A stretch of 64,000 nt of DNA, taken from the NCBI RefSeq assembly GCF_901538265.1, contig NZ_LR593886.1:2170001-2234000 (forward strand), written 5' to 3'. The notes under the pieces are model-generated. The model had not been told where the DNA came from. It searched no databases and was given only the letters and a program-made list of their open reading frames with translations. Shown here in pieces: positions 21,049 through 40,878 of the stretch. A program made the position numbers and the translations under genes. Origin of the DNA: Gemmata massiliana. Lineage in GTDB: Bacteria > Planctomycetota > Planctomycetia > Gemmatales > Gemmataceae. Each line of letters begins with the position of its first letter. The stretch's first letter is position 1.

Positions 21049-21292
21049 GCCGGCGAGCGGAGCGATGGTGCGGGCGGTTCGTGTAATCGGCCCGCATGTG
21101 TTCGCCGCCGTGCGAGCACGTGGTCCGCTGAGTCCGCAAGTCGTGTGCTCGTCGGCTCCAAACCCTTCGCCACCTTGCCTATCGGAGTGCCCTCACGGGA
21201 TCGAACCGAAGGGTAACCGAACCCGCACCCGTACGCCAGTTACGTTTGCTGTCGTAGAAAAAACGCCGCGTACTTCGCTAACCCGCCGAGCC

Positions 21293-22512: not shown

Positions 22513-22983
22513 ATGGCGACCGCCCACACGGAGACGACCGTTCTCCTCACGCGCCTGGGTTCCAGGTTGTGTGCGATCCCGCTTGTAGACGTGATGGAAA
22601 GCATGCGCCCGCTCCCCGCGGCACCCGTTCCGGGAGTACCGTCGTTCGTCAAAGGGCTCGCCGTCATTCGAGGGGCGCCGGTCCCGGTGGTCGATCTCGG
22701 CCTCTTGGTCGGCGCGACCGGGGCGGCGCCGACCGGGCGTTATGTTCTTTTGCGCCTCGGCGAGCGGAGGGTTGCCATCGCAGTAGACGGGGTGCTGGGC
22801 GTGCGCCGGCTGGACGGCTCGGCCCTCCACAAACTACCCCCGCTCTTCCAAACTTCCGATCCGGAACTCACGACAGGGATCGGGGTGCGCGACGAGCAGT
22901 TGCTCTTCGTCCTCCAAACGGCGCGAATTGTGCCAGACGAGGTTTGGCGGATCGCGGAGCCGAACGGGGCGGGCGAACGATGA
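22513..22983 (+). CDS. cheW: CheW-type adaptor (first of operon)
   Basis: ATG 22513 (a longer frame from 22372 adds residues unlike the family) gives 156 residues forming one CheW/SH3-like domain: an N-terminal strand TTVLLTRLGSRLCAIPL, VPSFVKGLAVIRGAPVPVVDL, and RYVLLRLGERRVAIAVDGVLGV. It should link the chemoreceptor to CheA in a cytoplasmic array. The stop overlaps the start of the CheR gene (ATGA). By position it resembles WspB/WspD-type couplers. Confidence 0.88.
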   Translation: MATAHTETTVLLTRLGSRLCAIPLVDVMESMRPLPAAPVPGVPSFVKGLAVIRGAPVPVVDLGLLVGATGAAPTGRYVLLRLGERRVAIAVDGVLGVRRLDGSALHKLPPLFQTSDPELTTGIGVRDEQLLFVLQTARIVPDEVWRIAEPNGAGER

Positions 22984-24542
22984 ACGCGCCGGATCGGGAA
23001 CTCATCGACCGCTTTCGGGACGCCGTTGCCCGGCGGTTCGGCCTCGACTTCGACGACAGCAGACGAGATTTCCTCGGGGAAATTCTTGTAAAGCACGTCG
23101 CGCGCGCGAAGAGCGCGGACCCCTTCTCGTACATCCACCGCCTGGTATCGGGTCAAGCCCCGCGGTCCGAAACCGCGGACCTCGCCACGGACCTCACGGT
23201 GGGGGAAACGTACTTCTTCCGGCACCCGGATCAGTTCCGCGCGTTCGTTACCGCTGCTGAATTGGACCGGCACCCCCCGCCGGGGCCGCGCCGCCTGCAC
23301 ATTCTCTCGGCCGGTTGCGCGTCGGGGGAAGAGGCGCACTCGCTCGCCATCCTGCTCCGGGAACACGTCCCGGACGGCTCCGGTTGGAATCTCCGGGTCG
23401 TGGGGATCGACCTCAACCCCGTTTCGCTCGCCCGGGCAGCCCGGGGCCGGTACACCGCGTGGTCGCTCCGGGGCAGTGACGAAACAATCAAACAGCGGCA
23501 TTTCCACGCGCGCGATCGAGAATACCAACTGGACGATTCCGTCCGCGCGATGGTGACGTTCGAGGAACGCAACCTCCTCAGCGACGCGCCCGACTTCTGG
23601 CGACCGGGCGCTTATGACGTGATCTTCTGTCGCAACGTCATCATGTACTTCACTCCGGAAGCGGCGCGGGCCGTGGTCGCCCGGCTGACGCGCGCCCTGG
23701 TTCCCGGGGGGCACCTCTTTCTCGGGCCGGCCGAGACGCTCCGGAGCGTCTCGAACGATTACCACCTCCTGCACACGCACGACACCTTCTACTACCAGCG
23801 CCGCCGGGACACGACGGACGCGCTGCAGTTCCCCGTCGAGTCCAGGATCGCGCGCGAAGATGCCCTCTTTCCCGTCCTGTCGGGCGCGGATGGTTCCTGG
23901 GTCACCGCGATCGGCGAAGCGTCGGACCGGATCGCGCGCCTCCGACGCGAGATGCGCCCAGTCGGCCCCGCCGCTTCCCCCGCCTCGGGCGGCCCGATCT
24001 CGGGAGACGAGGCGCCCCCGGTACCGGAGGTAGCCCGCCCGCTGGACCTCCGGACTGCGCGCGAAATGGTTCGGCAGGAGCGCTACGCCGACGCCCTCCA
24101 GGTACTCGGGGTTCCGGCCGGTGAAGACCGGCGCGACCCCGATGCCCAACTGCTGCGGGCCGTGATCCTGACGAATTGCGGGCATGTTGCAGAAGCCGAA
24201 CAGCTCTGCCACGATGTCCTTTCGGGCGACGAACTCAACGCCGAAGCCCGGTACCTCCTCGCGCTGTGCCGGGAACACGCCGGGGAGTTCGATTCGGCAA
24301 CGGAGGAGGACGGGATCGCGATCTACCTGGACCCGCGGTTCGCCATGCCGCACCTGCACCTCGGGCTCCTCCGCAAGCGCGCGGGGGACCGCGCGGGCGC
24401 GCACCGGGCGTTTCGCGAGGCTGCAGCCCTGCTCCCACGCGAGGACGCCTCCCGCGTCGTACTGTTCGGGGGCGGGTTCAGTCGCGAGATGCTCCTCCGG
24501 TTGTGCGAGGCGGAACTGCGCGCGCGTGAGGGCGACTCATGA
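22980..24542 (+). CDS. cheR: CheR-type chemoreceptor methyltransferase with C-terminal TPR
   Basis: ATG 22980, overlapping the cheW stop by four bases; 520 residues. The CheR domain (about 1-270) has an all-alpha N-terminus, the T-x-E-T-Y-F-F-R motif (LTVGETYFFR), the SAM-binding LSAGCASGEEAHSLA, VVGIDLNP and VIFCRNVIMYF. Residues about 360-500 are TPR-like helices (RYADALQVLG, AEARYLLALCREHAGEFDSA). It transfers methyl groups from SAM to receptor glutamates; the TPR is a known feature of WspC/FrzF-type enzymes and may gate binding to the receptor. A frame extending upstream to 22569 is antisense-like overlap and was discarded. Confidence 0.93.
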   Translation: MNAPDRELIDRFRDAVARRFGLDFDDSRRDFLGEILVKHVARAKSADPFSYIHRLVSGQAPRSETADLATDLTVGETYFFRHPDQFRAFVTAAELDRHPPPGPRRLHILSAGCASGEEAHSLAILLREHVPDGSGWNLRVVGIDLNPVSLARAARGRYTAWSLRGSDETIKQRHFHARDREYQLDDSVRAMVTFEERNLLSDAPDFWRPGAYDVIFCRNVIMYFTPEAARAVVARLTRALVPGGHLFLGPAETLRSVSNDYHLLHTHDTFYYQRRRDTTDALQFPVESRIAREDALFPVLSGADGSWVTAIGEASDRIARLRREMRPVGPAASPASGGPISGDEAPPVPEVARPLDLRTAREMVRQERYADALQVLGVPAGEDRRDPDAQLLRAVILTNCGHVAEAEQLCHDVLSGDELNAEARYLLALCREHAGEFDSATEEDGIAIYLDPRFAMPHLHLGLLRKRAGDRAGAHRAFREAAALLPREDASRVVLFGGGFSREMLLRLCEAELRAREGDS

Positions 24543-25105
24543 GTACCGGTTCGCAAACCGGCGCCCCCGACCTCCGGGACGATGTCGAGCAAATGCGCCG
24601 GAGCTTCGATCAGGTCTTCGCGGCCCCCGACCCGCCCCCGGCCGGGGAGCGCGACGATTTTGTGGCCGTTCGCGTCGGCGGGCGCCCGTTCGCGCTGCGC
24701 GTGGCCGAACTCGTCCGGATCGAGGCTGGCAGGAAGATCGTCGCCCTGCCCGGCGGTGATCCCTGGCTCCTGGGCCTCGCGGCGTGCCAGGGGAAACTGA
24801 TACCGGTGTACAGTCTGGAACTCGCCCTTGGCGACCGAACCACCGGCGAGAACACCTGGCTCGGGATCTGTGGCCGAGAAGACCCGTTGGGGCTGGCGTT
24901 CGGCGCGCTAGAGGGGTACTTCCGGGTTCCGCGGGCGGACGTCTACGGCCCGGGCGAGGCGGGATCCCAACAGAATGATGCGCACCGATCGGTGAGTATC
25001 GGGGGAGCGCTGCGCACCGTCGTACACCTCCCGTCCGTCCTCGCGGCCATTCGCGAGCGCGTGACGGCCCACACGAGTACGGAACCGGAAGGAGCGAGCC
25101 GATGA
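24539..25105 (+). CDS. cheW: Second CheW-type adaptor
   Basis: Begins with ATG overlapping the cheR stop (ATGA). 188 residues: an N-terminal helix of about 40 residues (DDVEQMRRSFDQVF) precedes the CheW domain (DFVAVRVGGRPFALRVAEL, WLLGLAACQGKLIPVYSL, then PLGLAFGALEGYFRV). The extra helix and the Ser/Gln-rich loop near residue 145 are not standard CheW. The stop again overlaps the next start. Confidence 0.87.
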   Translation: MSTGSQTGAPDLRDDVEQMRRSFDQVFAAPDPPPAGERDDFVAVRVGGRPFALRVAELVRIEAGRKIVALPGGDPWLLGLAACQGKLIPVYSLELALGDRTTGENTWLGICGREDPLGLAFGALEGYFRVPRADVYGPGEAGSQQNDAHRSVSIGGALRTVVHLPSVLAAIRERVTAHTSTEPEGASR

Positions 25106-26574
25106 CGGGTCAGTGGACCTTCGGAACGAGACTCGGTGTGGGATTCGGGTTCGCCGGGCTGGTGCTGCTGATCATCGGAACCGCGGGCTATTACAGCACG
25201 CACCGGTTGATCGAAAACGACAAACGGGTGAACCACTCCCACCAGGTGCGCCGGGAGCTGGCCGATCTGCAGTCCGAACTCAAGGACGCCGAGACCGGTC
25301 AGCGCGGCTTCGTTATTACCGGCAAAGAGAGCTATTTGGCGCCCTACCAGTCCGCGCTCGAGCAGATCAAGATCACCTTCGATCGCGTTCGGTCCCTCAC
25401 AACCGATAACGTCGATCAACAGAGGCGCCTGGATAAATTGCTCCCACTGATGGAGTCGAAACTGGCCGAACTCAAGCGGACCATCGACCAGCGCCGAAAG
25501 GACGGGTTCGAGCCCACGGCCAAAGTCATTGCCGAGGACCAGGGCAAGGAGCTCATGGACTCGATCCGCAGGGTCGTGGCCGAAATGGACCGGCAGGAGC
25601 AGGACCTGCTGGACGCGCGGAGCGCGGAGGCCGAAGCCACGGCGTCCGCGACGAAAGCCGTGATCCTCTGGGGCAGCCTCGTCGGGGTGGCCCTAGTCGC
25701 GCTGTTCGGCTGGTACATGGTCGCTTCGCTCCGGCGCCAGATCGGGTCGGCGGTCCAGCACATCCAAAGTTCATCGAACGAACTTCAAGCGGCGGCCACT
25801 CAACAGACGACCGTTTCACGAGAGCAGGCCGCGTCCATGAGCGAGATCGCCACCACCATTAAAGAACTGGTCGCCACCGCGCGGCAAATTGCCGAGAGTG
25901 CGCAGCGCGTCGCGGGGATCGCCGAGGACACGGCTCGAGGCGCCCGCACGGGCGACCAGACGCTGAAGGGCGCTCAGGACGCTGTCGCGAACATCCGGGG
26001 CCAAGTCGATCTCATTGTTTCGCACATGCTGGATTTGGGGCGCAAATCGCAGCAAATCGGCGGCATTTTGGAAGTGATTAACGAACTGGCCGAGCAGACC
26101 AACATCCTGGCCATCAACGCCTCGATCGAGGCCGCTGGTGCCGGCGACGCGGGCCGGCGCTTCGGGGTCGTGGCGGACGAGATCCGCAAACTGGCGGACC
26201 GCGTGGGCGGTTCGACCAAGGACATCAAGTCCCTGATCGAGGAGATCCGCGGGGCCGTCCACACCACGGTCATGGCCACGGAGACCGGCTCCAAGGCGGT
26301 CGACGTCGGCACGCGCCAAATTCGCGACGTGTCGGCCGGGTTCCAGCAGATCGTTCGGCTGGTCGAAACGACCACCGAGGCGGCGCGCGAAATCGAACTG
26401 AGCACGAAGCAGCAAACGACCGCCGTGGAGCAAGTAAACGAGGCGATTGCCAACATCGCACAGGCCTCCCGGGAGTCGGAGGTCAGTTCGACGCAGACCC
26501 TCCAGACCGTGACCGAACTGACCGGCCTGTCCCGAAATCTGGCGCGCCTGGTTCAACCGCAGGCGCGGGCGTGA
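25102..26574 (+). CDS. CHASE3-domain methyl-accepting chemoreceptor without HAMP
   Basis: 490 residues, ATG overlapping the cheW stop. TM1 about 11-30 and TM2 about 193-213 bracket a periplasmic CHASE3 domain (VNHSHQVRRELADLQSELKD, AETGQRGFVITGKE.YLAPY). After TM2 the coiled coil starts directly; no HAMP domain is visible. The signalling hairpin tip ELAEQTNILAINASIEAAGA with RRFGVVADEIRKLADR is canonical, and Gln/Glu pairs for methylation are present. It should form the sensing end of this array, matching WspA in layout. Confidence 0.92.
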   Translation: MTGQWTFGTRLGVGFGFAGLVLLIIGTAGYYSTHRLIENDKRVNHSHQVRRELADLQSELKDAETGQRGFVITGKESYLAPYQSALEQIKITFDRVRSLTTDNVDQQRRLDKLLPLMESKLAELKRTIDQRRKDGFEPTAKVIAEDQGKELMDSIRRVVAEMDRQEQDLLDARSAEAEATASATKAVILWGSLVGVALVALFGWYMVASLRRQIGSAVQHIQSSSNELQAAATQQTTVSREQAASMSEIATTIKELVATARQIAESAQRVAGIAEDTARGARTGDQTLKGAQDAVANIRGQVDLIVSHMLDLGRKSQQIGGILEVINELAEQTNILAINASIEAAGAGDAGRRFGVVADEIRKLADRVGGSTKDIKSLIEEIRGAVHTTVMATETGSKAVDVGTRQIRDVSAGFQQIVRLVETTTEAAREIELSTKQQTTAVEQVNEAIANIAQASRESEVSSTQTLQTVTELTGLSRNLARLVQPQARA

Positions 26575-26575
26575 C

Positions 26576-28630
26576 ATGGCGAAAGACCCTTACAAGTACT
26601 TCCGCGTCGAGGCCCGGGAACTCCTGGAGGGGCTCTCCCAGGGGATCATCGACCTCGAAAAACGGGGCGTCAGCAAGGAGCTGGTGAACCGGCTGCTGCG
26701 CCTCGCGCACACGCTCAAGGGGGCGGCCCGTGTTGTCAGACAGGGGGAAGTTTCCGAACTGGCGCACGGCATCGAGGAACTGCTGGAGCCCTTCCGGGAC
26801 GCCACTGGGTTGGTCCCGCGGGACCGGATTTCGCGGCTCCTGGAACTGGTCGATACGTGCGGCGAGCGGCTCAAACCCGTCTTTTCGCCCCCCGAACAGG
26901 AACGCGCCGCGGTCCCGGCCCCGCCCCAAGAGCCGGAAGGAGCGATCACCAACGTCCGGGTCGAGATCGCCGAGATGGACACGCTCCTTTACGACCTAGC
27001 CGACGCGACCGCGCACATCGGGGCCGTGTACCAAGAAACCGCGGCGCTCGACGCCGTGGTCGAGACCGCGAACGCGCTCGTGACCGAGTTGGCCTCGGTG
27101 CCCGGGCCGAGCGACAGCGGCGCGCGCGCCCGGGCCGAAGAATTGCGCACCGCACTGAAGCGGAGCAGTCGGTCCTTGCGTGCCGGCCTCGATCGCGCCC
27201 AGCGCGACCTCGGTGCCATCCGCGACCGGGCCAGCGACCTCCGGTTGCTGCCGGCGCGGGCGATTTTTGCGCCGATGGAACGCGCCGCGCGCGACGCCGC
27301 GGACGCTCTGAAGAAGCGCGTAGTGTTTGAAGCGGCGGGCGGCGAGCACCGACTGGACGCGCACGTTTTGTTGGCGCTGCGAGACGCCCTCGCGCACGTC
27401 GTTCGGAACGCCGTGGCCCACGGCATCGAACCCGAACCCGCGCGCGCCGCGGCCGGTAAAGCCCCGGAGGGCCGGGTCCGGCTCCGCGTGCAGAAGCGGG
27501 GCAACCGCGTTCATTTCGTCGTTGACGACGACGGGGCGGGCGTCAACCTCACCGCCATTCAGGATTCTTTGATCGCAAAAAGGCTGATTCCGACCAGCGA
27601 GGCCCGGGCTTTGCAGCTCCCCGAAGCCACGCGGCTCTTGCTCCAGGGGGGGGTGAGTACCGCGCCCGAGGTCTCCGAAGTTATGGGCCGGGGCATCGGG
27701 CTCGATGTCGTGCGCGCGACGGTCGGGCGGCTAAAGGGCGAGGTCGAGTTGCGCAGCGAACCGGGCCGCGGAACGGCGCTCGAGCTCATGGTCCCGGTGT
27801 CCCTCGAGTCGATGGACGTTCTGTCCGTGAGCGCGGGCGAGTCCAGCGTGCTGATCCCGTTCGACGCGATCCGCCAAACGATGCGGCTGGCGAACAAGGA
27901 TCTGGCGCGATCGGCGAGCGGGGCGGCGCTGGTTCTCGACGGGCACACGATCCCGTTCGTCCCGCTCGCCGAGGTCTTGAGCAAGAAGCGGCTCCCGGGA
28001 TCTTGGCCACAAACGTGGACGGTGGTCGTCCTCCGGGCGCGGGGGGCGCAGGGCGCCATCGGCGTGAACCGGCTGAACGGGGTCCGGAACGTGGTTCTGC
28101 GCCCGCTCCCGGCCCTGAGCGGCTCGAGCCCCCTCGTCGCCGGCGCGACGCTCGACGGGGAAGGCAACCCGGAACTGGTTCTCGACCCGCCCGCCCTGAT
28201 TACCGCGGTTCGTTCCGTGACCGGTCCCGCGACCGAACCGGTCGTTGCCCCGCCGGCCAGCGTCCTGGTCGTCGATGACTCGCTCACCAGCCGCATGTTG
28301 GAACAAAGTATTCTGGAAACGGCCGGGTACCGAGTCGATCTGGCGGTGTCCGGGGAGGACGCACTGGAGAAAGCGAAGCAGAAACCATACGCGCTCTTCG
28401 TCGTGGACGTGGAAATGCCGGGCATGAACGGCTTCGAGTTGCTGGAGCGGTTCCGGGCCGACCCCGTTCTGCAAAAGACCCCGGCGGTCCTGGTCACCTC
28501 CCGGGCCTCCGGCGACGACCGGCGCCGGGGGGAACAGGTCGGGGCCCGCGCCCACATTGCCAAAGGGGATTTCGAGGAGGCCCACCTGCTGCGCACGATC
28601 CGCCGACTCATCGAGGGGGAATCGACGTGA
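26576..28630 (+). CDS. cheA: CheA-type histidine kinase with C-terminal receiver (WspE-like)
   Basis: 684 residues. Order: HPt (phosphoacceptor H45 in RLAHTLKGAAR), a dimerisation helix region about 125-235, a HATPase domain about 250-405 (VVRNAVAHGIEP N-box, DDDGAGV, MGRGIGLDVVR), a CheW-like regulatory domain about 405-545 and a receiver about 560-684 with D611 (VVDVEMPGMNG). It autophosphorylates on His and can pass phosphate to its own receiver and to CheB. ATG lies one base after the receptor stop; its stop overlaps the cheB GTG. Confidence 0.95.
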   Translation: MAKDPYKYFRVEARELLEGLSQGIIDLEKRGVSKELVNRLLRLAHTLKGAARVVRQGEVSELAHGIEELLEPFRDATGLVPRDRISRLLELVDTCGERLKPVFSPPEQERAAVPAPPQEPEGAITNVRVEIAEMDTLLYDLADATAHIGAVYQETAALDAVVETANALVTELASVPGPSDSGARARAEELRTALKRSSRSLRAGLDRAQRDLGAIRDRASDLRLLPARAIFAPMERAARDAADALKKRVVFEAAGGEHRLDAHVLLALRDALAHVVRNAVAHGIEPEPARAAAGKAPEGRVRLRVQKRGNRVHFVVDDDGAGVNLTAIQDSLIAKRLIPTSEARALQLPEATRLLLQGGVSTAPEVSEVMGRGIGLDVVRATVGRLKGEVELRSEPGRGTALELMVPVSLESMDVLSVSAGESSVLIPFDAIRQTMRLANKDLARSASGAALVLDGHTIPFVPLAEVLSKKRLPGSWPQTWTVVVLRARGAQGAIGVNRLNGVRNVVLRPLPALSGSSPLVAGATLDGEGNPELVLDPPALITAVRSVTGPATEPVVAPPASVLVVDDSLTSRMLEQSILETAGYRVDLAVSGEDALEKAKQKPYALFVVDVEMPGMNGFELLERFRADPVLQKTPAVLVTSRASGDDRRRGEQVGARAHIAKGDFEEAHLLRTIRRLIEGEST

Positions 28631-29727
28631 AAAAGCTCCGCGTGCTGGTCGTCGAGGATTCCCTCACGGTGCGCAAGTACCTCGTGGAGCGCCTCCAGGC
28701 CGACCCCGAGTTGGAGGTTGTTGCCGAAGCGGGGGACGGCAAACTGGCCATCGAACTGTGCGAGCGCCTGCGGCCCGACGTCGTCACGCTCGACATGATG
28801 CTCCCGGTCATGAGCGGGCTGTCCGCCACGGAGTACATCATGGCGTACTGCCCCACTCCCATCGTGATCGTCTCCGCGTCGACGAACCGCGGGGAGCTGT
28901 TCCGGACCTACGAGGCGCTCGCCGCCGGGGCGCTCGACGTGATCGAGAAGCCCCTCGCCGACACCAGCACCCCGGAGTGGGAGCGGAACCTCGTCTCCAC
29001 CATCAAAGTCGCGGCGCGCGTCAAGGTCATTACTCACCCGCGGGGCCGATTGAAGGGGGCACAATACCCCTCCCGTGTCGAGCCCATTCTGGTCGCGCCA
29101 GCACTTCCCGATTCGCCCGAAACCGCAACCCGACCGTACCGCTGCGCTGCGGTCGGCGTTTCCACCGGCGGCCCCCAGGCCCTGGCCGCCCTTCTCGGCG
29201 CGCTCCCGGTGAACTTCCCGCTCCCGCTCCTCATCGTGATGCACATCGGCCACACGTTCGGGGGCGCGTTCGCCGAGTGGTTGGCCGACCAGTCCGCAGT
29301 TCCCGTGTCCGTAGCGGTCCACGGTCAGCCGCTGCCCGGGTACGGCGAGCCGGGCGCGGTGCTGGCGCCCCCGGACCGGCACCTCGTCGTTCGGGGGGGC
29401 CACTTCCGTCTCACCAACGAGCCCGAGGTCCACTCGTGTCGGCCGGCGGTGGACGTGTTGTTCCAATCCGTTGCCCAGGAAATCGGCCCCCGAGCGATCG
29501 GCGTGCTCATGACGGGGATGGGCCGCGACGGCGCCCGGGGACTGCTGGCCATGCGCAGCGCAGGTGCGATGACACTGGCGCAGGACGAGGAGTCGTCCGT
29601 CGTGTTCGGCATGCCGCGCGAAGCAATCCTGCTGGGCGCGGCCCAGCGCGTGCTCCCGTTGGACGAGCTGGCGCCGACTCTAATCGCACTCGGAGCGGCG
29701 GGGGGGCCGGGGGCGCGGAAATCATGA
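28627..29727 (+). CDS. cheB: CheB-type receptor methylesterase/response regulator
   Basis: GTG 28627 overlaps the cheA stop (GTGA). 366 residues: receiver about 1-125 with D56 (VTLDMMLP) and K in VIEKPL, then a methylesterase domain with S179 (GVSTGGPQ), H206 (VMHIGHTF) and D301 (MTGMGRDGA). It hydrolyses receptor methyl esters or deamidates Gln when phosphorylated. WspF is the counterpart in Wsp systems. Confidence 0.95.
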   Translation: MKKLRVLVVEDSLTVRKYLVERLQADPELEVVAEAGDGKLAIELCERLRPDVVTLDMMLPVMSGLSATEYIMAYCPTPIVIVSASTNRGELFRTYEALAAGALDVIEKPLADTSTPEWERNLVSTIKVAARVKVITHPRGRLKGAQYPSRVEPILVAPALPDSPETATRPYRCAAVGVSTGGPQALAALLGALPVNFPLPLLIVMHIGHTFGGAFAEWLADQSAVPVSVAVHGQPLPGYGEPGAVLAPPDRHLVVRGGHFRLTNEPEVHSCRPAVDVLFQSVAQEIGPRAIGVLMTGMGRDGARGLLAMRSAGAMTLAQDEESSVVFGMPREAILLGAAQRVLPLDELAPTLIALGAAGGPGARKS

Positions 29728-32081
29728 ACCCTCAAATTCTCGTAGTCGATGACAGCCTGACGGTCCGGATGGATCTGGAGGAGGCGTTCTCCGAAGCCGG
29801 GTTCGCGCCGGTACTCTGTGCCGATCTCGCGTCCGCCCGCACGGTTCTCGCTCGGGGGGCGATCGCTCTGGCGGTTCTGGACGTATTACTACCCGACGGC
29901 GACGGAATGGACCTCCTCGCCGAGATCCGAGCGAACCCCGCGCTTGCGAGCACCCCCGTGCTCGTCTTGTCCGCGGAGGCCGACGTCCGCGACCGGGTGC
30001 GGGGACTGGTGGTTGGGGCGAACGGCTACCTCGGCAAGCCCTACGACCGGCGCGACGTCGTCGACCGCGCCCGGGAACTCATCCGCCAGCGGTCCGCTCT
30101 CCCGGGAGGCCCCGCGCCGCTCGTTCTGATTATTGAAGACAGTCCGACGTTTCGGGAAGAACTGCGCGCGGTTCTGGAGTCCGGTGGGTACACGGTCCGC
30201 GCCGCCGGGACCGGTGAAGAGGGGGTGCGCCTCGCCGCCCAACTCCGGCCCGCCGGCGTCGTGGTCGATGGCCAGCTCCCCGGCATCGACGGCGCCACGG
30301 TGGTCCGCCGAATCCGCTCGAACCCGGCGCTCCGCCACATCCCGTGCCTCCTCCTCACCGGCTCGGTGGGAACGGACTACGAGCTCCAGGCACTGGACGC
30401 CGGCGCGGACAGTTACGTCCGCAAGGAGGAGGGCACGGAAGTCGTTCTCAGTCGGCTCGCCACGCTCCTGCGCTCGGCGGTCGCGCCGACGGCACTGGAG
30501 CGGCAACTCTCCCCCACGGGGCCGAAGCGCGTTCTGGCCGTGGACGACAGCCCGACGTTCCTGGACGCGGTGACGCAGGAACTCCGGCAGGACGAGTACG
30601 AGGTGTTCCGGGCCTCGTCCGGGGACGGCGCGATGGAGTTCCTCGCGCACCAGCCGGTCGATTGCGTCCTGCTCGACCTGGTGATGCCCGGAATGACGGG
30701 CGAGGAGACGTGCCGGCGCATCAAGGCGCTCCCGGGGTTCCGGGACGTTCCCGTGATGATTCTGACCGCGAACAAGGACCAGGAGGCCCTCCTCAGTTGC
30801 CTCAAAGCAGGCGCGGACGACTACATTCCGAAGGGGGTCGAGTTCGACGTGCTCCGGGGCCGGGTGCGGGCGCAACTGCGGCGCAAGCAGTACGAGGGAG
30901 AGAACCGCCTCATCCAAGAGGTCGTATCGACCCTCCGCAAGAGCGAGGCGCTGTTGGGGGGGCTGTTCGAGTCCGCGCCGGACGCGATCGTCGTCACCGA
31001 CCGCGACGGGCGGATCGTCCGGATCAACGCCCAGGCCGAGGCGATCTTCGGGTACGGCCGGGGAGAAGTGCTCAACCAACCGGTCGAGGTGCTAATGCCC
31101 GACCGGTTCCGGGACCAACACGGCCCCCTGCGCCGGTCCTTCGTGGCCGACCCGCGGCGCCGGGCCATCGCCCCCGAGCGCGAGCTGTGGGGGCGCCGGA
31201 AGGACGGGCGCGAGTTCCCGGCCGACATCGTGCTCGGCCCGGTGGTGACGGAGGAAGGGGTGCTCGTGCTGGCGACCGTGCGGGACGTGACCGCGCGCCG
31301 GGAGATGGAACTCGCGCTCCAGGCCCGGAACGAAGAGGTGCGCGAGATCTCCCAGCAGCTCTGGCAGACGGCGAAGCTGGCCACGATGGGCGAACTGGCG
31401 GCCAGCATCGCCCACGAGCTGAACAACCCGCTGGGCACGGTCAGCCTCGGGATCGAGGAGCTGCTCGCGCAGGCGCCGGCGGGCTCGCCCGCGCACCGGG
31501 AACTGAAGATCATGGAGCAGGAGACCGAGCGGATGGCCCGCCTGGTGGCCGACCTGCTCCAGTTCAGCCGGCCCGGGCAGCAGCAGGTGTCCACGTTCGA
31601 GGTGAGCGAGGAGATCGAAAAGACCCTCGAGCTGAGCCTCTTCTTCCTCCGCAAGCGCGGCGTCGAAGTGGTCCGGCAGTTCGCCCCCGACCCGCCCCTC
31701 ATTCAGGGGGACCGGCAGCAGCTCCGCCAGGTGTTCCTCAACCTGATCGTCAACGCCAGCGACGCGATGCCCCACGGAGGGGCGCTGACCATTCGGGTCG
31801 GCGCGGGCGCCCTGGCGGACGCGGCGCCCGCGGTCGCGCTCGAGTTCGCCGACTCCGGCACCGGTATCCCGCCCGAGAACCTCTCGAAGATCATGGAGCC
31901 CTTCTTCACGACCAAGGAGCCGGGCAAGGGAACCGGCCTGGGGCTGGCGATCTGCCGCCGGATCGTACACGAGCACCGCGGAACGATCGGGCTGAGTAGC
32001 GCGGTGGGGGCGGGCACCACGGTCCGGATCGCGCTGCCCGTTCACAACGGGGAGAACGGCCACCACCTGGACTCGGGGTGA
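29724..32081 (+). CDS. Triple-receiver, PAS-containing histidine kinase
   Basis: ATG 29724 overlaps the cheB stop (ATGA); 785 residues. Three receivers come first (aspartates in VLDVLLPDGDG, VVDGQLPGIDG, LLDLVMPGMTG). A PAS domain about 405-530 (LFESAPDAIVVTDRDGRIV) follows, then HisKA (MGELAASIAHELNNPLG), HATPase (NLIVNASDAM, SGTGIPP, GKGTGLGLAI) and a short tail. Phosphate from CheA-REC could reach the receivers and set kinase activity. Receivers 2 and 3 have altered switch-Lys surroundings (VRKEEG, IPKGVE), so they may differ in role. No DNA-binding domain is present. Confidence 0.9.
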   Translation: MNPQILVVDDSLTVRMDLEEAFSEAGFAPVLCADLASARTVLARGAIALAVLDVLLPDGDGMDLLAEIRANPALASTPVLVLSAEADVRDRVRGLVVGANGYLGKPYDRRDVVDRARELIRQRSALPGGPAPLVLIIEDSPTFREELRAVLESGGYTVRAAGTGEEGVRLAAQLRPAGVVVDGQLPGIDGATVVRRIRSNPALRHIPCLLLTGSVGTDYELQALDAGADSYVRKEEGTEVVLSRLATLLRSAVAPTALERQLSPTGPKRVLAVDDSPTFLDAVTQELRQDEYEVFRASSGDGAMEFLAHQPVDCVLLDLVMPGMTGEETCRRIKALPGFRDVPVMILTANKDQEALLSCLKAGADDYIPKGVEFDVLRGRVRAQLRRKQYEGENRLIQEVVSTLRKSEALLGGLFESAPDAIVVTDRDGRIVRINAQAEAIFGYGRGEVLNQPVEVLMPDRFRDQHGPLRRSFVADPRRRAIAPERELWGRRKDGREFPADIVLGPVVTEEGVLVLATVRDVTARREMELALQARNEEVREISQQLWQTAKLATMGELAASIAHELNNPLGTVSLGIEELLAQAPAGSPAHRELKIMEQETERMARLVADLLQFSRPGQQQVSTFEVSEEIEKTLELSLFFLRKRGVEVVRQFAPDPPLIQGDRQQLRQVFLNLIVNASDAMPHGGALTIRVGAGALADAAPAVALEFADSGTGIPPENLSKIMEPFFTTKEPGKGTGLGLAICRRIVHEHRGTIGLSSAVGAGTTVRIALPVHNGENGHHLDSG

Positions 32082-35000
32082 GCGCCCGCGCGCGACGGCC
32101 CGTGTCGAGCCATTTACCGGAGGGTGCTGCCTTGCCCGATTCCAGCCTGGGGCGGTTACTCATTGTCGACGACGAGATCGAGTTGCTCAACTCGCTCGCG
32201 GACAAGCTCGCGAAGCAGGGCTACGAGACGGTGCGGTTCTCCGCGCCCCGGGACGCGCTGCTCGCGCTGGAGAGCGAGACCTTCGACCTGCTGTTGACGG
32301 ACCTGATGATGCCGGGGATGGACGGCATCGCGCTGCTCCAGGCGGCCCGCCGGATCGACCCGGAACTGGCCGGGATCGTGATGACGGGTCAGGCGACCGT
32401 GCAAACGGCGGTCGACGCCATGAAGACCGGGGCCCTCGATTACGTCCTGAAGCCGTTCAAGATCAATACGATTCTGCCCGCCCTGGCCCGGGCCCTGGAG
32501 GTGCGCCGGCTCCGCCGGGAGAACATCCAACTGCGCGAGACGGTGGGGATCTACGAGCTGTGCAACGCGATCTCGTTCACCCTCGACCACCCGACCCTCC
32601 TGAACAAGGTCGTCGACGCGGCGCTGCAGCAGTGCGAGGCCGAGGAAGCTTCGGTCATGTTGCCCACCGAGACCGGGGACGAGCTCCGGGTCGCCGCCAT
32701 CCGGGGCGAGGGGCGCGGGTACCTGATCGGTGAGCGCGTGTTCCTGAGCCAGGGGATCGCGGGGTGGGTGGCCCGGCACGGCGAATCGGTGGCGATCTCC
32801 GGGACGGCGTACGATCCCCGTTTCGCACCCGTCCAGCCCCGCACCGATATCCGCTTCGCGATTTCCATGCCCATGCTGGTAGGCGGGAAGTTGATCGGGG
32901 TTCTAAACGTCAACTCGACGAGCCGGCGCCGCGCGTTCACCCCGGGGCAGGTCAAGGCGCTCAGCATTCTCGCCAACACGGGCGCGGCGGCCCTGGAGAG
33001 CGCGCGGCTCCACACGGCGCTGCGGCGCGCCGAGGAGCAGTACCGGTCCATCTTCGAGAACGCCTCAGAGGGCATCCTCCAGTCCACACCGGACGGGCAG
33101 GTGCAGATCGCGAACCCCGAGGCGGCCCGGATGCTGGGGTACGACTCGACCGACGACCTCGTCACCAACGTGCGCGATTTGGGGGCACAGGTCTACGAGA
33201 TCAGCGAGGACCGGACCGAGGTGGTTCGGTTGCTGGAGGAACGGGGCCGGGTGCGCGATCTCGAGTTACCAATGGTCCGGAAGGACGGAACCCGGATTTG
33301 GGTGTCGCTGAGCGGTCGGGCGGTCCGGGATCAGCACGGGAAGACACTGAGGTACGAGAGTACGCTCGGGGACATCACCCGGCGCAAGCAGGCCGAATGG
33401 CGGTCCGCTGCCGAGCACCACGTGGCCCGGATCTTGGCCGAGGCCCCGTCGCTGACCGAGGCCCTCTCCCGCACCCTCCGGGCACTCGGCGAGGATTTGG
33501 GCTGGGAGCAGTGCGCGATGTGGCGTGTGGACCCCCAAGACCGGGTGCTGCGGTGCGCGGAGATCTGGCGCCCCCAGCCCGGCGCGCGGGGCGAACCCGA
33601 ACCGTTCAGCCGCTCCGCCACGCTCTCGCGCGGGAACGGGCGGCCCGGGCGCGTTTGGGCGCTCGGACAAACCGTCTGGGTTCCGGACATCACCGTGGAC
33701 GCCGATGTCTTGCGGCGGAATCCGGCGGAGCAGACCGAGTACCGGGGCGCGGTCGCGTTCCCGATTCTGGTCGGGGCGGACGTTCTGGGGGTCATCGAGC
33801 TCTTCAGCCGGGAGGTGCGCCCGCCGGACCCGGCGCTCTTGGGGACACTTGACACGGTCGGTAACCAGCTCGGCGTGTTCATCGAGCGCAGACGCGCCGA
33901 GGAGGAACGCGACCGGTTCTTCGAGCTGTCGGTAGACATGCTCTGCGTGATCGGGTTCGACGGCCGATTCCAGATCGTCAACCCCGCTTGGGCGACAACT
34001 CTTGGCTGGCCCCCGGAAGAGTTTTCGGGCCGTCCGTACACCGATCTCATGCACCCGGACGACCGCGGGGGGGCCGGCCCCGACGCACTCGCGGCCGGTT
34101 CCGCGGCCCCGCTCTCGTTCGAGAACCGGTACCGCTGCGCGGACGGGTCGTACAAGTGGTTGTCTTGGCGTGCGGTGACCGATCCGGCCCGGCGGGTCGT
34201 GTACGCCTCGGCTCGCGACACAACGGCGAAGCGGCAGGTCGAAGCCGAGCTGCAACTACGGGACCGGGCCGTTCGGGCGGTCACGCAGGGGATCCTGATC
34301 GCGGACGCGGCGCAACCGGATAACCCAATTATCTACGCTACGCCCGGGTTCGAAAGAATGACCGGGTACGGGGTGGAAGAAGTGCTCGGCCGCAACTGCC
34401 GGTTCCTCCAGGGGCCGGACACCGATCGGGCAACGGTGTCCCGGTTGCGCGAGGCGATCCGCGTGGGCGAATCGTGCAGCGCGGAGCTCCTGAATTACCG
34501 GAAGGACCGAACGCCGTTTTGGAACGATTTGTCCGTCGCCCCGGTCCGGGACGAGACCGGGCGGCTGACGCACTTCGTGGGGGTTCTGACCGACGTTACG
34601 TCCCGGCGGCATTTGGAGACGCAACTGCACCAGTCTCAGAAAATGGACGCCATCGGTCGGTTGGCGGGCGGAGTGGCGCACGATTTCAACAACCTGCTGA
34701 CCGTCATCAACGGGTACAGTGACTTGCTCCTGGAGCGGCTCCCGGCGGCCGATCCTAACCGCGAGCTGGTCGCCGAAATCTATCACGCGGGGGAGTGCTC
34801 GGCCGGCCTGACCCGTCAGCTCTTGGCGTTCAGCCGCCAACAGATCCTGGCCCCGCGGGTACTCGATCTGAGCGCGGTGGTGGCCGATACCGAGAGGATG
34901 CTCCGGCGGCTGATCGGAGAGGACATCCGGCTGTCCACCGCTTCGGACCCGGGGCTGTGGGCCGTCCGGGCCGACCCGGGGCAAATCGAACAAGTGCTCC

Positions 35001-35773
35001 TGAATCTGGCGGTAAACGCCCGAGACGCGATGCCCCGCGGCGGCCAACTGACGATCGAAATCCGGAACATTGAACTCGACGCCGCGTACACTCGAACACA
35101 CCCGGACGCCCGTTCCGGTCCGCACGTTCAGATAGCCGTGTCGGACACCGGGTGTGGGATGAGCCCGGAAGTAATGGGCCGAATCTTCGAGCCGTTTTAC
35201 ACCACCAAGGACCTCGGCAAGGGGACCGGCCTCGGCCTCTCTACCGTTCACGGGATCGTGAAACAATCTGGTGGGCACCTCGGGGTGTACTCTGAAGTCG
35301 GTGTCGGGACGACGTTCAAGGTGTACCTTCCGCGCGTGAATGAAACCGGCACCGGTCCCCAACTACAGTCCGGCCCCCTCCAGACGAGCACGGGAACGGA
35401 GACGATCCTCCTCGTGGAGGACGAGGACCGGATCCGCTCACTTAGTCAGCACATTCTGGTCGGGTGCGGGTACGCGGTCCTCGCGGCGGCCAACGGGGAC
35501 GAGGCGGCGGAAGTTGCCGCGGGTCACGAGGCCCCGATCCATCTCTTGGTGACGGATGTGGTGATGCCGGGGGCCGGGGGGCGGACCGTTGCGGCGAGTG
35601 TGGCGAAGCACCATCCCGGGGTTCGGGTGCTGTTCGTCAGCGGGTACACGGACGACGCGGTGGTCCGGCACGGGGTACTGGAAGCGGGCGTGAACTTCCT
35701 TCAGAAGCCATTTTCGCCCGCGGCTCTGGCCCAAAAGGTTCGGGCGATTCTCGATGGAGGTGAAGGAACGTAA
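32078..35773 (+). CDS. LOV-domain multi-sensor hybrid histidine kinase
   Basis: GTG 32078 overlaps the previous stop (GTGA); 1231 residues. Order: receiver (D75, LLLTDLMMPG), GAF about 165-315, PAS about 322-445, GAF about 450-610, PAS about 615-725, LOV-type PAS about 728-845, HisKA with H868 (GGVAHDFNNLL), HATPase (NLAVNARDAM, DTGCGM, GKGTGLGLST), receiver (D1160, LLVTDVVMPG). The LOV core is complete: GRNCRFLQG with C774 as the flavin-adduct cysteine, then NYRKDRTPFWN and THFVGV. This predicts an FMN-binding blue-light input. No output DNA-binding domain is present, so the partner regulator is elsewhere. Confidence 0.93.
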   Translation: MSARARRPVSSHLPEGAALPDSSLGRLLIVDDEIELLNSLADKLAKQGYETVRFSAPRDALLALESETFDLLLTDLMMPGMDGIALLQAARRIDPELAGIVMTGQATVQTAVDAMKTGALDYVLKPFKINTILPALARALEVRRLRRENIQLRETVGIYELCNAISFTLDHPTLLNKVVDAALQQCEAEEASVMLPTETGDELRVAAIRGEGRGYLIGERVFLSQGIAGWVARHGESVAISGTAYDPRFAPVQPRTDIRFAISMPMLVGGKLIGVLNVNSTSRRRAFTPGQVKALSILANTGAAALESARLHTALRRAEEQYRSIFENASEGILQSTPDGQVQIANPEAARMLGYDSTDDLVTNVRDLGAQVYEISEDRTEVVRLLEERGRVRDLELPMVRKDGTRIWVSLSGRAVRDQHGKTLRYESTLGDITRRKQAEWRSAAEHHVARILAEAPSLTEALSRTLRALGEDLGWEQCAMWRVDPQDRVLRCAEIWRPQPGARGEPEPFSRSATLSRGNGRPGRVWALGQTVWVPDITVDADVLRRNPAEQTEYRGAVAFPILVGADVLGVIELFSREVRPPDPALLGTLDTVGNQLGVFIERRRAEEERDRFFELSVDMLCVIGFDGRFQIVNPAWATTLGWPPEEFSGRPYTDLMHPDDRGGAGPDALAAGSAAPLSFENRYRCADGSYKWLSWRAVTDPARRVVYASARDTTAKRQVEAELQLRDRAVRAVTQGILIADAAQPDNPIIYATPGFERMTGYGVEEVLGRNCRFLQGPDTDRATVSRLREAIRVGESCSAELLNYRKDRTPFWNDLSVAPVRDETGRLTHFVGVLTDVTSRRHLETQLHQSQKMDAIGRLAGGVAHDFNNLLTVINGYSDLLLERLPAADPNRELVAEIYHAGECSAGLTRQLLAFSRQQILAPRVLDLSAVVADTERMLRRLIGEDIRLSTASDPGLWAVRADPGQIEQVLLNLAVNARDAMPRGGQLTIEIRNIELDAAYTRTHPDARSGPHVQIAVSDTGCGMSPEVMGRIFEPFYTTKDLGKGTGLGLSTVHGIVKQSGGHLGVYSEVGVGTTFKVYLPRVNETGTGPQLQSGPLQTSTGTETILLVEDEDRIRSLSQHILVGCGYAVLAAANGDEAAEVAAGHEAPIHLLVTDVVMPGAGGRTVAASVAKHHPGVRVLFVSGYTDDAVVRHGVLEAGVNFLQKPFSPAALAQKVRAILDGGEGT

Positions 35774-36129
35774 GCGCCTTATGAAATTTTCAATTACCCA
35801 CAACTTGGGTCTTTAACTCGAAGGCGAGCATGATGTCGGTGAGCCGGGCGGGTCCTCGTCAGACCACCACGGTGCCCGGTGGTGGATCGTTCTCTTGTGC
35901 CAGGGACTCTCCTGTCGCGTGCGGCGAGGTTGAACCGCTCGGTGCTCGCATCTCACAGTGCACCCCGAAGGCGGTGACGGGTGCCCGTGCCGAGCCGGCA
36001 CACGGATTACGAGCCATCGCGGGGGGCAGCTGGCCCGTGTCGTACTCGCGGCCAGGACGTCGAGGGCTTGCGCGGCTGTCGGGCGGCGGGCAGAAATTTA
36101 CCAAACAGCCTCATGGTTGTATAATTCAG
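35774..36129. other. Gap after the chemosensory operon
   Basis: About 355 bases without a supportable gene. Nothing like a strong terminator hairpin was seen immediately after 35773. The far end joins a kinase pseudogene. Confidence 0.5.
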
Positions 36130-36537
36130 TCGCTCGGGCAGGTCCGGACGGAGGCCGATTGGGGCACCGGCTTCGCAGTACAGATCGCACGGAGCACGCT
36201 CGCCACGGTGTTCCCGGGGAACGCAGTTCTACCGGTCGCCATCTCGTACAGTACCGCGCCGAGGGCGAATCCGAGGCCGGCACCACCGGCTGGCCTTCGA
36301 TGAGTTCCGGGGCCACGAAGCGAGGGGTTCCGGCCGGCGCACTGTTGGCCGGAGCCCCGACCACACCGGCCCGGTTTTCAAGAGTACGTTCGCCGGTTTC
36401 AGGTCGCGGGATCGGCCGCGCCCCCGTGTTGCGTGAGGTGCGCTTCCCGACAGTCGCTGGCCACATACTCTATCGCCAGGTGGCACCCCGACTGATTCCC
36501 CGACCGCGTAAACGGCGCCCACGTTCTCGTGTCGGAT
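36130..36537 (-). pseudogene. Ser/Thr protein kinase catalytic-domain remnant
   Basis: Minus-strand frames carry subdomain pieces: IRHENVGAVYAVGE, RDLKPANVLLK (catalytic loop), AGTPRFVAPELIEGQ (activation-loop APE region) and FALGAVLYEMATGRTAFPG (subdomain IX), spread over at least three frames. The nucleotide-binding lobe and the usual C-terminal sensor region are missing. Planctomycetes carry many such STKs; this copy is dead. Confidence 0.7.
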
Positions 36538-37170
36538 CACCGCACGCGGCCCGGGCCTCCCGCGCGAACCGCCGCAGGTTCTCGTCGGTCGGGGGCCCGA
36601 TCCCGGCCGCGGTCGCCCGGCGCTTCAGGTAAGCTCTGTAATCCTCGCCCGTGTCCTTGCGGACGATGGCCTGCGTGGTCGCGTTGGCCTCCGGAGTGGT
36701 CGAATCCGCACCCACGGTCTGACCCCGCAGTAACTTCTTCTCGTGAGCGATCGCTAGGACGCTGGCGAACACTTGTTCGTGAATCGCCTCTGACAGGCGC
36801 TTGTGAATCTTGGTCGGGCTGGAGCGGTTCGGGGGTGCCTCGGTGGCCGGGATCGTGAAGAACGCCCGCCAGAACAGGCTGTCGGCACAGCGCCCAGGCG
36901 ATGCCGCATTGGTAGTCGATCCCCTCGAAGTATCCGACGAACAGCGCGCGAACGTATGTGCCCAGCGGCACCGACGAGCGCCCACCTCATCGGCGTAGTG
37001 GGGTCGGCACAGATCCCGGCGAACCGGTCGAGTGCCCTTCGGCCAAGGAGGGCGTTGAGGTGGGCGTAGAACGCACGGCCGGGGCTGCGGCAGGTCAGCG
37101 GACGTGACGAACAGTTCGTCCTGGTGAGACGACCGACGGCGACTCAAAGACGTAGCAACGACCTCAGCCG
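36538..37170 (-). pseudogene. IS1182-like transposase fragment, frameshifted
   Basis: Frames contain PLGTYVRALFVGYFEGIDYQ, then in another frame TKIHKRLSEAIHEQVFASVL, KKLLRGQTVGADSTTPEANA and RKDTGEDYRAYLKR, the N-terminal half and first catalytic Asp region of an IS1182-type transposase. The C-terminal half is replaced by the kinase remnant, so the element probably inserted in or recombined with that gene. Confidence 0.65.
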
Positions 37171-37537
37171 GTGATACACCTTCGACGCGCAACACCACCA
37201 AATAGTTGCGCTTTTTCAACGGGCTGATAGCGTCGCACAATTCCGACACAGCGGGTTCAGAAGTGTATTTTTGTTTGAATATTATTGATTATGTTAATTT
37301 TGTCAAAATATTAAAAATTATTCTCGTGACGATCGCTCAGGTAAACGAGTAATTCGCTGAAATTGCTCTTCGCGCCGGGTGGTTGAGCGGTCATATCGCT
37401 CGCCGGCGCGAACCGAACACACGTTCGGCGCGTCTCAATCACGGCTCGGGCCGTTCTAATTGGGAGGTTACTATGACGTGGATGACCACTTCCGAGACTG
37501 TTGCGTTTTTCGCCCCGTCGCCGGAGGGATCATTTCC
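37171..37537. other. AT-rich leader of the ABC-F gene
   Basis: About 365 bases. The stretch 37258-37335 is strikingly AT-rich (TTTGAATATTATTGATTATG type) compared with the flanks, consistent with a promoter region or insertion scar. A GGAGGG ribosome-binding site at 37522-37527 serves the next gene. Confidence 0.5.
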
Positions 37538-39121: not shown

Positions 39122-39145
39122 GCGCGTGATGGCCTGTTCCAAGGA

Positions 39146-39187
39146 CCGCAGGCCTCCTGCGGGTACACCCACCGCCCTTACGGGCGG
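39146..39187 (+). terminator. Twin short hairpins after the ABC-F gene
   Basis: CCGCAGG-CCT-CCTGCGG (39146-39162) and CCGCCC-TTAC-GGGCGG (39172-39187). No U-run follows, so terminator function is tentative; they may belong to a dispersed intergenic repeat. Confidence 0.4.
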
Positions 39188-39315
39188 GGTTCACCGGTCG
39201 CGCCGCTTCTTGTGGATCACATTTCTTTCCGCAACATTCGCCCGCCTTTTCCGCGCCTCTTTCATTTCACCCCCGTTACACTGGTGCGAATTCTGCCCTC
39301 CCTCACGGCGCGATC

Positions 39316-40656
39316 ATGCCGCCACCGGATCTCGAACCCTCAGCTCAGCCGCCGACACAAACGCGGTTCGTTGTCGCCGCGTGGCTCTGCGGACTTGCGG
39401 CCATTCTGTACCTCGATCGCATCTGCATGTCGCAGGCGGTGAAGCCGATCTGCGACGATTTGGGGCTTTCCAAGAACCAAATGGGCGACGTGATGGCCGC
39501 TTTCACGCTGGCCTACGGCATGTTCGCGGTGCCCGTCGGCCGGTTGGGGGACAAGCTCGGTCCGCGGTCCGTGCTCGGGGGCATCGTGCTCGTGTGGTCG
39601 GTGTTTACCGCGCTCACGGGCCTCGCGACCGGACTCGCTACGTTGCTCGTCGTGCGGTTCCTGTTCGGCGCGGCGGAAGCGGGCGCGTTCCCGAGCGCGG
39701 CGAAGGTGATGTCGCGGTGGTTCCCGCACAGCGAACGGGGCCGCGTGCAGGGTGTTATGCTCGCGTTCGCGCAAATCGGTGCGGTGATCGCGCCGGCCGG
39801 GGCCGCCTACCTCATCGATGCGGCCGGGTGGCGCTGGGCGTTCTTCCTGTTCGGGGCACTCGGAGTCGTGTGGGCGTGCGGGTTTTGGTTGTGGTTCCGC
39901 AACGATCCGTCACAGCACGCGAGCGTGAACGAAGCGGAACTCGCGCGCATCCACGCAGAAGAAGCCCCGCTCGCTCTCGACCCGGGACCGGTGCCGTGGC
40001 GGGCGGTTCTGACCAACCGCGGCATCCTCGTTCTCAGCCTCATCATGATTCTTGGGGCGTTCTACACCTACTTCTTCTACGGCTGGCTCCCGACGTACCT
40101 TCGCGACGCACGCGGAGTGGACAACAAAGAGGCCGGGTGGCTGTCGTCGCTCGTACTCGGCGGGTCGGCAATCGGGATGCTCGTCGGCGGGTGGCTCGCG
40201 GACCGCATCCCGCAGCGCGCGGCCGATCCGGTCGCGGCCCGGCGCTACCTCGGGGTGGGCGCGTACCTCACCGCGGCCGGCTTTCTTTACTCGGGCGTCC
40301 AGTGCGACGACGCGCTGTCACTCGCGCTCTTCTGGGGCGCGTCGTTCTGCGTGATGCACCTCACGCTCCCGAACTGGTGGTCGGTCATCATTCCGCAATC
40401 GGGCAAGCACGTCGGCACGGTCTTCGGCCTGGCGAACGGCGCCGGCGTGCTCGGGGCGATGGTGTCGCAGAAGTTCGTGGGCTGGTTCACCGATCGGCAA
40501 GAGAAACTGCACGGATTAACCGCACGCGCGGCGTGGGATCCGCTGATCGATCTGTACGTGTGCGTGCTCGTGTGCGCGGCGGGGGCGTGGTGGTTGTACC
40601 GCTTCACGCCGCTCGTGGAACCGCCGCCGCAACAGGAACAGGGCGAAGGGCGGTAA
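39316..40656 (+). CDS. MFS transporter, anion:cation symporter (hexuronate/glucarate) type
   Basis: 446 residues with about 12 hydrophobic segments. The first loop motif GRLGDKLGPRSVLGG and the YLDRICMS opening, followed by SKNQMGDVMAAFTLAYGMF, are typical of ACS-family sugar-acid transporters; MSRWFPHSERGRVQG and GWRWAFFLFGALG are further family blocks. It likely imports an organic acid or hexuronate with H+ or Na+. It stands alone between two hairpins; the enolase-superfamily gene 5 kb downstream could share its substrate range, but that is inference. Confidence 0.85.
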   Translation: MPPPDLEPSAQPPTQTRFVVAAWLCGLAAILYLDRICMSQAVKPICDDLGLSKNQMGDVMAAFTLAYGMFAVPVGRLGDKLGPRSVLGGIVLVWSVFTALTGLATGLATLLVVRFLFGAAEAGAFPSAAKVMSRWFPHSERGRVQGVMLAFAQIGAVIAPAGAAYLIDAAGWRWAFFLFGALGVVWACGFWLWFRNDPSQHASVNEAELARIHAEEAPLALDPGPVPWRAVLTNRGILVLSLIMILGAFYTYFFYGWLPTYLRDARGVDNKEAGWLSSLVLGGSAIGMLVGGWLADRIPQRAADPVAARRYLGVGAYLTAAGFLYSGVQCDDALSLALFWGASFCVMHLTLPNWWSVIIPQSGKHVGTVFGLANGAGVLGAMVSQKFVGWFTDRQEKLHGLTARAAWDPLIDLYVCVLVCAAGAWWLYRFTPLVEPPPQQEQGEGR

Positions 40657-40695
40657 GCACTGCCCGCACCTTGAATCGTGTGCCTTTGCTCGTGG

Positions 40696-40743
40696 CACAG
40701 ACCTCTGGCCTGTGGAGGCGCTCACACAGGCCAGAGGCCTGTG
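40696..40743 (+). terminator. 19-bp near-perfect stem after the MFS gene
   Basis: CACAGACCTCTGGCCTGTG (40696-40714) pairs with CACAGGCCAGAGGCCTGTG (40725-40743) with a single mismatch around a 10-base loop. It is strong enough to be a terminator although no T-run follows; the CCAGAGGCCTGTG core also looks like an interspersed repeat. Confidence 0.6.
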
Positions 40744-40878
40744 TCACCGAACCAAGAACTATAAGCACCCTTTTAGCACAACGCGCAGTTGCCCGAATCT
40801 CGTGCTGTCAACGCGCTCGTAATCGGGTACGCTAGACCTACTTCCCGCCGTGTCCGTCCGGCCGCCCGGAGTCTCGCA

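Follow-up and report, generated by a model that had tools for sequence, protein, structure and literature searches.

A hybrid histidine kinase with a glutamine-less LOV domain at the end of an ACF-like chemosensory operon in Gemmata massiliana

Introduction

Can one bacterial protein answer both to a chemoreceptor array and to blue light? The question is raised by a 64,000-nucleotide stretch of DNA from Gemmata massiliana (positions 2170001-2234000 of the single 10.1 Mb contig NZ_LR593886.1; hereafter the window), in which the seventh and final member of a chemosensory gene set, all on the plus strand, encodes a hybrid histidine kinase with a LOV (light-oxygen-voltage) domain. The original prediction, of an intact blue-light sensor closing a Wsp-like operon, is partly confirmed and its interpretation partly supported; it fails on an active-site glutamine and on strict Wsp membership. 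We propose, with our confidence about evenly divided, that this LOV kinase is the output protein of a cassette resembling the chemosensory systems of alternative cellular functions (ACF), in which a conserved head has been joined to a blue-light hybrid kinase with a glutamine-less LOV domain and answers to array and light.

The LOV kinase and its operon

The gene is a single open frame of 1231 codons, in which Pfam recognizes nine domains: two receivers (REC), two GAF, three PAS (one of them LOV), HisKA and HATPase. This bears out the predicted count of two GAF, two other PAS and two receiver domains. The N-terminal half comprises REC (residues 28-135), GAF (170-307), PAS (about 320-435) and the second GAF, which lies before residue 607; the C-terminal half comprises PAS (615-719), the LOV-type PAS (728-841), HisKA (860-921), HATPase (966-1086) and the last REC, domain edges outside the best Pfam stretches being set by judgement. 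The residues expected for phosphotransfer are kept: the first receiver (REC1) has D75 and K125, the kinase has H868, N980 and the G1049 motif, and the last receiver has D1160 and K1210. A chance match or a frame error is ruled out by the open frame, the Pfam domains and the matches to LOV domains in the PDB, and decay is unsupported, since neither the acceptor residues nor the ATP-binding motifs have been lost. The LOV kinase and its operon are real and well formed.

The gene order is CheR, CheW, a methyl-accepting chemotaxis protein (MCP) with a CHASE3 domain, CheA-REC, CheB, a kinase with three receivers and a PAS domain for which we use the working name HK3R, and the LOV kinase (Table 1). 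Start and stop codons overlap by 4 nt at five of the six junctions, including that between HK3R and the LOV kinase, and the MCP and CheA genes are spaced by 1 nt; this order and these overlaps uphold the prediction that the gene closes a chemosensory operon. The ATG at 22980 is the likely start of CheR, judged against its counterpart in an orthologous operon (L115). Its C-terminal matches to TPR_19 and TPR_2 are weak and fall under the Pfam cut-offs.

The LOV domain and its missing glutamine

Compared with solved LOV domains, the LOV segment gives E values down to 1.5e-42, far past chance, and it keeps G771, N773, C774, R775, F776, L777, Q778, N806 and N816. The GRNCRFLQG core with the adduct cysteine C774 is present as claimed. 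The flavin-contact region, said to be intact in both its asparagines and its glutamine, retains the former (N806, N816) and has lost the latter: the strand reading FVGVQ or FVGIQ in five solved relatives is FVGVL in the window protein, with L837 at the glutamine site. NCBI models for LOV-HK-REC proteins (PRK13557), YtvA and blue-light kinases match the LOV region, all under their cut-offs. A single-sequence AlphaFold2 fold of the segment was too poor (mean predicted local distance difference test score 62.8) and was not used.

A published filter for natural "LOV-deltaQ" domains asks for at least eight of nine named LOV residues and the absence of the glutamine (PMC9098866). All nine are present here, with leucine at the glutamine site, and judged by its residues the window LOV is a natural LOV-deltaQ domain. 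Passages of the same paper put natural glutamine-deficient LOV proteins at about 350, with leucine and isoleucine as the main replacements, and report that the change from glutamine to leucine leaves light signalling by YF1 largely unimpaired, makes it stronger in NmPAL (17-fold versus 10-fold) and permits similar light-induced structural changes in AsLOV2 (PMC9098866). Because receptors with leucine for glutamine signal in these tests, light sensing by the LOV kinase is still likely.

An alternative is that the domain binds flavin but senses redox state or oxygen, or is a poor photoreceptor after the loss of its glutamine, so that its natural cue is not light. The replacement by L837 would fit this, as would the often attenuated responses of LOV domains without glutamine in general and the redox ancestry of LOV domains discussed in the same source (PMC9098866). 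The adduct cysteine and all nine filter residues are kept, however; leucine variants signal, and a natural deltaQ cyclase with methionine responds to blue light (PMC9098866). We consider this alternative quite improbable.

Table 1. Features of the LOV kinase, its operon and a further chemosensory cluster with a LOV kinase as its last gene
Feature	Coordinates	Strand	Evidence
CheR methyltransferase, probable C-terminal TPR region	22569..24542	+	Pfam CheR 1.7e-43
CheW adaptor	24539..25105	+	Pfam CheW 1.1e-8
Chemoreceptor (MCP) with CHASE3 sensor domain	25102..26574	+	Pfam CHASE3 1.3e-42, MCPsignal 2.1e-38
CheA-REC hybrid kinase; Hpt H45, REC D611	26576..28630	+	Pfam Hpt, HATPase_c, CheW, Response_reg; residue check
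CheB (REC and methylesterase)	28627..29727	+	Pfam CheB_methylest 6.1e-57, Response_reg 9.1e-19
HK3R, REC-REC-REC-PAS-HisKA-HATPase; D53, D182, D318, H564	29724..32081	+	Pfam; residue check
LOV hybrid kinase, REC-GAF-PAS-GAF-PAS-LOV-HisKA-HATPase-REC, operon end	32078..35773	+	Pfam; residue check
Head REC-GAF-PAS, residues 1-446, acceptor D75	32078..33415	+	67-85% per domain to L031, L115
Tail PAS-LOV-HisKA-HATPase-REC, residues 603-1231	33884..35773	+	Collinear with other LOV hybrid kinases
LOV domain, residues 725-849	34250..34624	+	PDB LOV matches, NCBIfam models
Adduct cysteine C774	34397..34399	+	Residue check
L837 (CTG) at the active-site glutamine position	34586..34588	+	Alignment to solved LOV domains
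HisKA phospho-acceptor H868	34679..34681	+	Residue check
C-terminal receiver phospho-acceptor D1160	35555..35557	+	Residue check
G012 che cluster ending in a LOV hybrid kinase (L316)	G012:C1:3822000-3841900

LOV domains in the class

Of the 397 genomes of the class, 73, among them that of the window, have LOV matches (E at most 1e-28). The census took 124 loci from the listed matches. Seventeen without the adduct cysteine were left out at the glutamine site, and one of the 107 with cysteine (L247) is a fragment lacking that site, which leaves 106, counting L237, L238 and L243 despite their poor motif. Glutamine is found in 78 and is missing from 28, which carry leucine (10, the window included), threonine (5), valine (3), methionine (3), cysteine (2), glutamate (2), serine, isoleucine or alanine (1 each). 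The nine other LOV residues are all intact in 76 domains, among them 57 with glutamine and nine with leucine. A quick tree of the 106 domains requires at least 16 changes between glutamine and its absence, a rough figure because 52 of 101 inner branches are open and the changes may run either way. Since the nearest relative of the window LOV (L123, support 84) carries glutamine, the loss in the window probably came after their split. The scattered absence makes the role of glutamine testable on natural pairs such as these two, which are 74% identical.

The window's genome holds a second LOV domain (G000:C1:1905764-1906126; loci L194 and L245), with cysteine and glutamine, that is 57% identical to the one described here. 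Three loci of genome G028 (L140, L163 and L171) keep the asparagine and glutamine positions and have alanine, leucine or proline at the adduct cysteine site.

Mosaic make-up of the LOV kinase

The head matches operon orthologues without LOV, whereas the part from LOV to the last REC matches other planctomycete LOV kinases (61-85%), and the LOV kinase is thus a mosaic; we read it as a fusion of head and LOV-kinase tail, joined somewhere between residues of about 603 and 725. In the orthologous operon L115 (genome G028) identities are 70% for CheR, 64% for CheW, 85% for the MCP, 74% for CheA, 68% for CheB, 79% for HK3R and 72% for the head; L031 is a second full orthologue with the head. Taken by domain, REC1, GAF1 and PAS1 are 85, 77 and 67% identical to those of L031 and 84, 74 and 73% to those of L115, as against 22-37% to six other LOV kinases (54% over one 13-residue stretch). 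The LOV domain shows the opposite pattern, with 61-74% identity to the six and 35% and 30% over the corresponding parts of L031 and L115. HisKA, HATPase and the last REC are 64-85% identical to those of the six kinases. The last gene of L115 runs from the head to HisKA-HATPase, and that of L031 has the second GAF in common (50%), followed by other PAS domains and HisKA-HATPase-REC; LOV is absent from both. Five of the six LOV kinases have no che match in the flanks read, and the sixth, that of genome G012, stands in a che cluster. One of them (G028:C8) is without the adduct cysteine.

Matches by blastp to the LOV kinases of G289 and G016 start at residue 603 (about 62%). A sharp breakpoint at that residue is nevertheless unsupported by the segment identities and the blastp matches: the PAS domain at 610-722 is 33-36% identical to the six LOV kinases and 39% to L031, and high identity of the tail to LOV kinases begins only at LOV (about residue 725). 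Whether LOV and kinase arrived together is weakly addressed by a kinase tree built from the 43 of 66 rows scoring at least 400 bits, in which LOV was called by a check of aligned residues (L129 and L142 being tagged as having no LOV since the distance rule missed theirs).

The conserved head and its presumptive partner

Related heads were sought in 82 loci, a biased sample made up of the best 80 of 547 loci confirmed with patterns from the LOV kinase together with L115 and L116, which were chosen for their head match; L031 and L116 probably belong to one genome (G249). Twelve of the 82 carry the head over 280 residues or more. It is followed by HD-GYP in four (L032, L035, L036 and L039), by GGDEF-EAL in two (L043 and L044) and by a histidine kinase in six (identified by Pfam in L031, L034, L040, L042 and L115, and in L116 by tblastn alone); none of the 12 has LOV behind the head. 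With its head conserved and its tail exchangeable, the protein shows a way for chemosensory cassettes to acquire new outputs.

An HK3R-like core (more than 150 bits) lies upstream of the head in nine of the 12 loci and adjoins it in seven; a gap of about 0.7 kb intervenes in L034 and one open reading frame in L032. Upstream of the head, L043 has a different hybrid kinase and L040 none. A CheA or CheB match lies upstream in eight of the 12. In four distant cassettes (L035, L036, L039 and L042) the kinase core is 58-62% identical to the window's, CheB 44-49% and CheA 24-26% (in the three loci where it was found), and the head, at 46-55%, exceeds CheB in three. Because the core, and mostly the head too, is better conserved than CheB and CheA, this suggests that HK3R and the head are a cognate pair.

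LOV kinases near other che genes

The neighbourhoods of 66 other LOV loci, a subset of the LOV matches in the class with several flanks ending at contig ends, contain che matches in eight cases. One of these, L118, from a member of the same genus (G012), is a non-orthologous che cluster on one strand, in the order MCP, a protein with four CheW domains, CheB, a HEAT protein, CheA, a CheY-like receiver, a kinase, a receiver and finally a LOV hybrid kinase (REC-PAS-LOV-HisKA-HATPase-REC with cysteine and glutamine); the opposite side of this region falls in L279. The idea that only the window has a che cluster with a LOV kinase as its last member is rejected by this cluster. On the claim that no Wsp-like operon is known to end in a LOV kinase, a search of titles and abstract openings of open-licence papers gave nothing on point for LOV with chemosensory operons or planctomycetes, but the genomes hold this second cluster. 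CheB and CheR lie near LOV in six further loci, as separate frames in L264 and L286. In the other four (L305, L312, L314 and L315), CheB, CheR and LOV are found within a single frame of 1480-1836 residues.

These neighbourhoods bear on the possibility that the LOV kinase is co-transcribed but independent, light or redox controlling H868 and D1160, the head being vestigial or an independent receiver, and no integration taking place. LOV hybrid kinases with tails of this kind are common in the lineage, and CheA occurs in only one region (that of G012, seen in the flanks L118 and L279) of the 66 neighbourhoods, which by a rough estimate is about the chance level in kinase-rich genomes. Independence is disfavoured by the retention of D75 and K125 in the head, by the 84-85% identity of REC1 to its orthologues and by the overlap of the gene with that of HK3R, and we think it rather unlikely.

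A possible route from array and light to output

In the working that we propose for the head joined to a LOV kinase, the array of CHASE3 receptors would set the activity of CheA, which would phosphorylate a receiver of HK3R; HK3R would in turn phosphorylate D75 in the head. The model for this relay is the trio CheA3, CheS3 and CheY3 of Rhodospirillum centenum. Blue light would cause the adduct between C774 and flavin to form and so shift autophosphorylation at H868, water standing in for the missing glutamine. D1160 would then receive the phosphate and either hand it to a partner encoded elsewhere or act as its drain, and the LOV kinase would be responsive to array and light both. Such integration is plausible on the domains and residues present, and a single protein could be the meeting point of light and chemical signals. 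A further step, which we put forward tentatively and with some doubt, is that the array acting through D75 and light acting through the glutamine-less LOV form a coincidence or veto gate, the cassette being a plug-in platform whose head has repeatedly been given new outputs (HD-GYP, GGDEF-EAL, kinase or LOV kinase).

Several observations weigh against our proposal. CheA may bypass HK3R and act directly on the head, and no output gene is found among the seven operon genes. Few genomes of the class have the head (three of 297, counting the window's own), and four of its 12 loci (L034, L040, L043 and L116) are without a che match on the stretch examined, L034 and L116 lying near contig ends. In L042 the head, at 46%, is less conserved than CheB at 49%. 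The join is not sharp: the PAS domain at 610-722 stands at 33-39% to all full-length comparisons, the blastp match to L031 extends to residue 850 (55% overall) across non-LOV PAS domains, and the LOV kinase of G150 matches from residue 307 onward (47%). The tail scores 588.1 bits with PRK13557, short of the curated cut-off of 631. LOV alone may have been inserted before an older kinase, because the kinase tree does not reject a clade of the window with L031 (p of the approximately unbiased test, 0.242).

If head and LOV tail do work as we propose, a photoreceptor is linked to phosphate flow from a chemosensory array that has no light-sensing receptor itself, and the protein offers a natural test of glutamine-less LOV signalling within a kinase.

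Flanking genes

Upstream of the operon, an integrase-core frame (21005-21835) matches IS3-type transposases under the NCBI cut-off, and the frame preceding it (20283-21008) has no match. Behind the operon is a stretch of about 1.7 kb (35774-37459), whose two longer open reading frames (35830-36303 on the plus and 36470-37249 on the minus strand) gave no Pfam match. The gene of an ABC-type ATPase begins at 37460. Between it and a gene with PSCyt1, PSCyt2 and PSD1 domains (40789-43854) lies a frame of 569 residues (39126-40835) with no Pfam or NCBIfam match. The PSCyt/PSD1 domain set by itself points to Planctomycetota as the probable origin of the DNA.

Comparison with known systems

The Wsp system of Pseudomonas comprises CheR, MCP, CheW, CheA-REC and CheB, and carries two CheW proteins (WspB and WspD). 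The window shares these kinds of protein and differs in having two extra kinases and no GGDEF response regulator; no second CheW was found among the seven operon genes scanned. No REC-GGDEF protein of the WspR type (PMC3447774) is present in the window, the three GGDEF matches of the genome all lying outside it. A Wsp system, with the array controlling cyclic di-GMP and the last gene a modified WspR, would fit the shared proteins and the HD-GYP or GGDEF-EAL tails of related cassettes (four and two of 12). With a kinase as the output of the last gene, a single CheW and no GGDEF in the window, we reject Wsp membership and hold this reading to be highly improbable. The predicted "Wsp-like" operon stands as chemosensory and falls as strict Wsp.

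On its gene content the operon is instead an ACF-like chemosensory cassette: its last two genes encode multidomain response regulators, by which ACF systems are defined (PMC3447774), and a CheR-TPR fusion counts as an associated, non-strict feature. A 2012 paper described clusters of CheR-TPR with response regulators bearing kinase, GGDEF, EAL, PAS or GAF domains (PMC3447774). These clusters resemble the window in these multidomain regulators, about 40% of which have HisKA-HATPase and some PAS or GAF; the passages of that paper dealing with them make no mention of LOV.

The tail (residues 729-1230) covers positions 33-538 of the 540 in PRK13557 (E 1.4e-176), a model that we equate with the LOV-HK-REC kind by length and domain order. 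Hybrids of this kind, such as Xac-LOV of Xanthomonas (PMC3366940), have the same order of LOV, HisKA, HATPase and REC. Unlike them, the window protein has REC-GAF-PAS-GAF-PAS in front, stands at the end of a che operon and lacks the glutamine. With natural LOV-deltaQ receptors it shares the adduct cysteine, the conserved LOV residues and the replaced glutamine, but the tested natural case in the parts of that paper cited above is a LOV-GGDEF fragment with methionine (PMC9098866), whereas the window has leucine, in a hybrid kinase of a chemosensory operon.

The closest model for the relay is Che3 of Rhodospirillum centenum, in which CheA3 phosphorylates REC1 of CheS3 and only phosphorylated CheS3 phosphorylates CheY3 (PMC3868531). 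Both clusters contain a CheA-REC and a multi-receiver PAS kinase, with a further receiver as target, and the acceptor residues that such a relay would use are present in the window proteins. CheS3, as described in the sections of that report on the relay, has two REC domains and an HWE kinase, and its target CheY3 is a single-domain protein (PMC3868531), whereas the target proposed in the window is the head of the LOV kinase.

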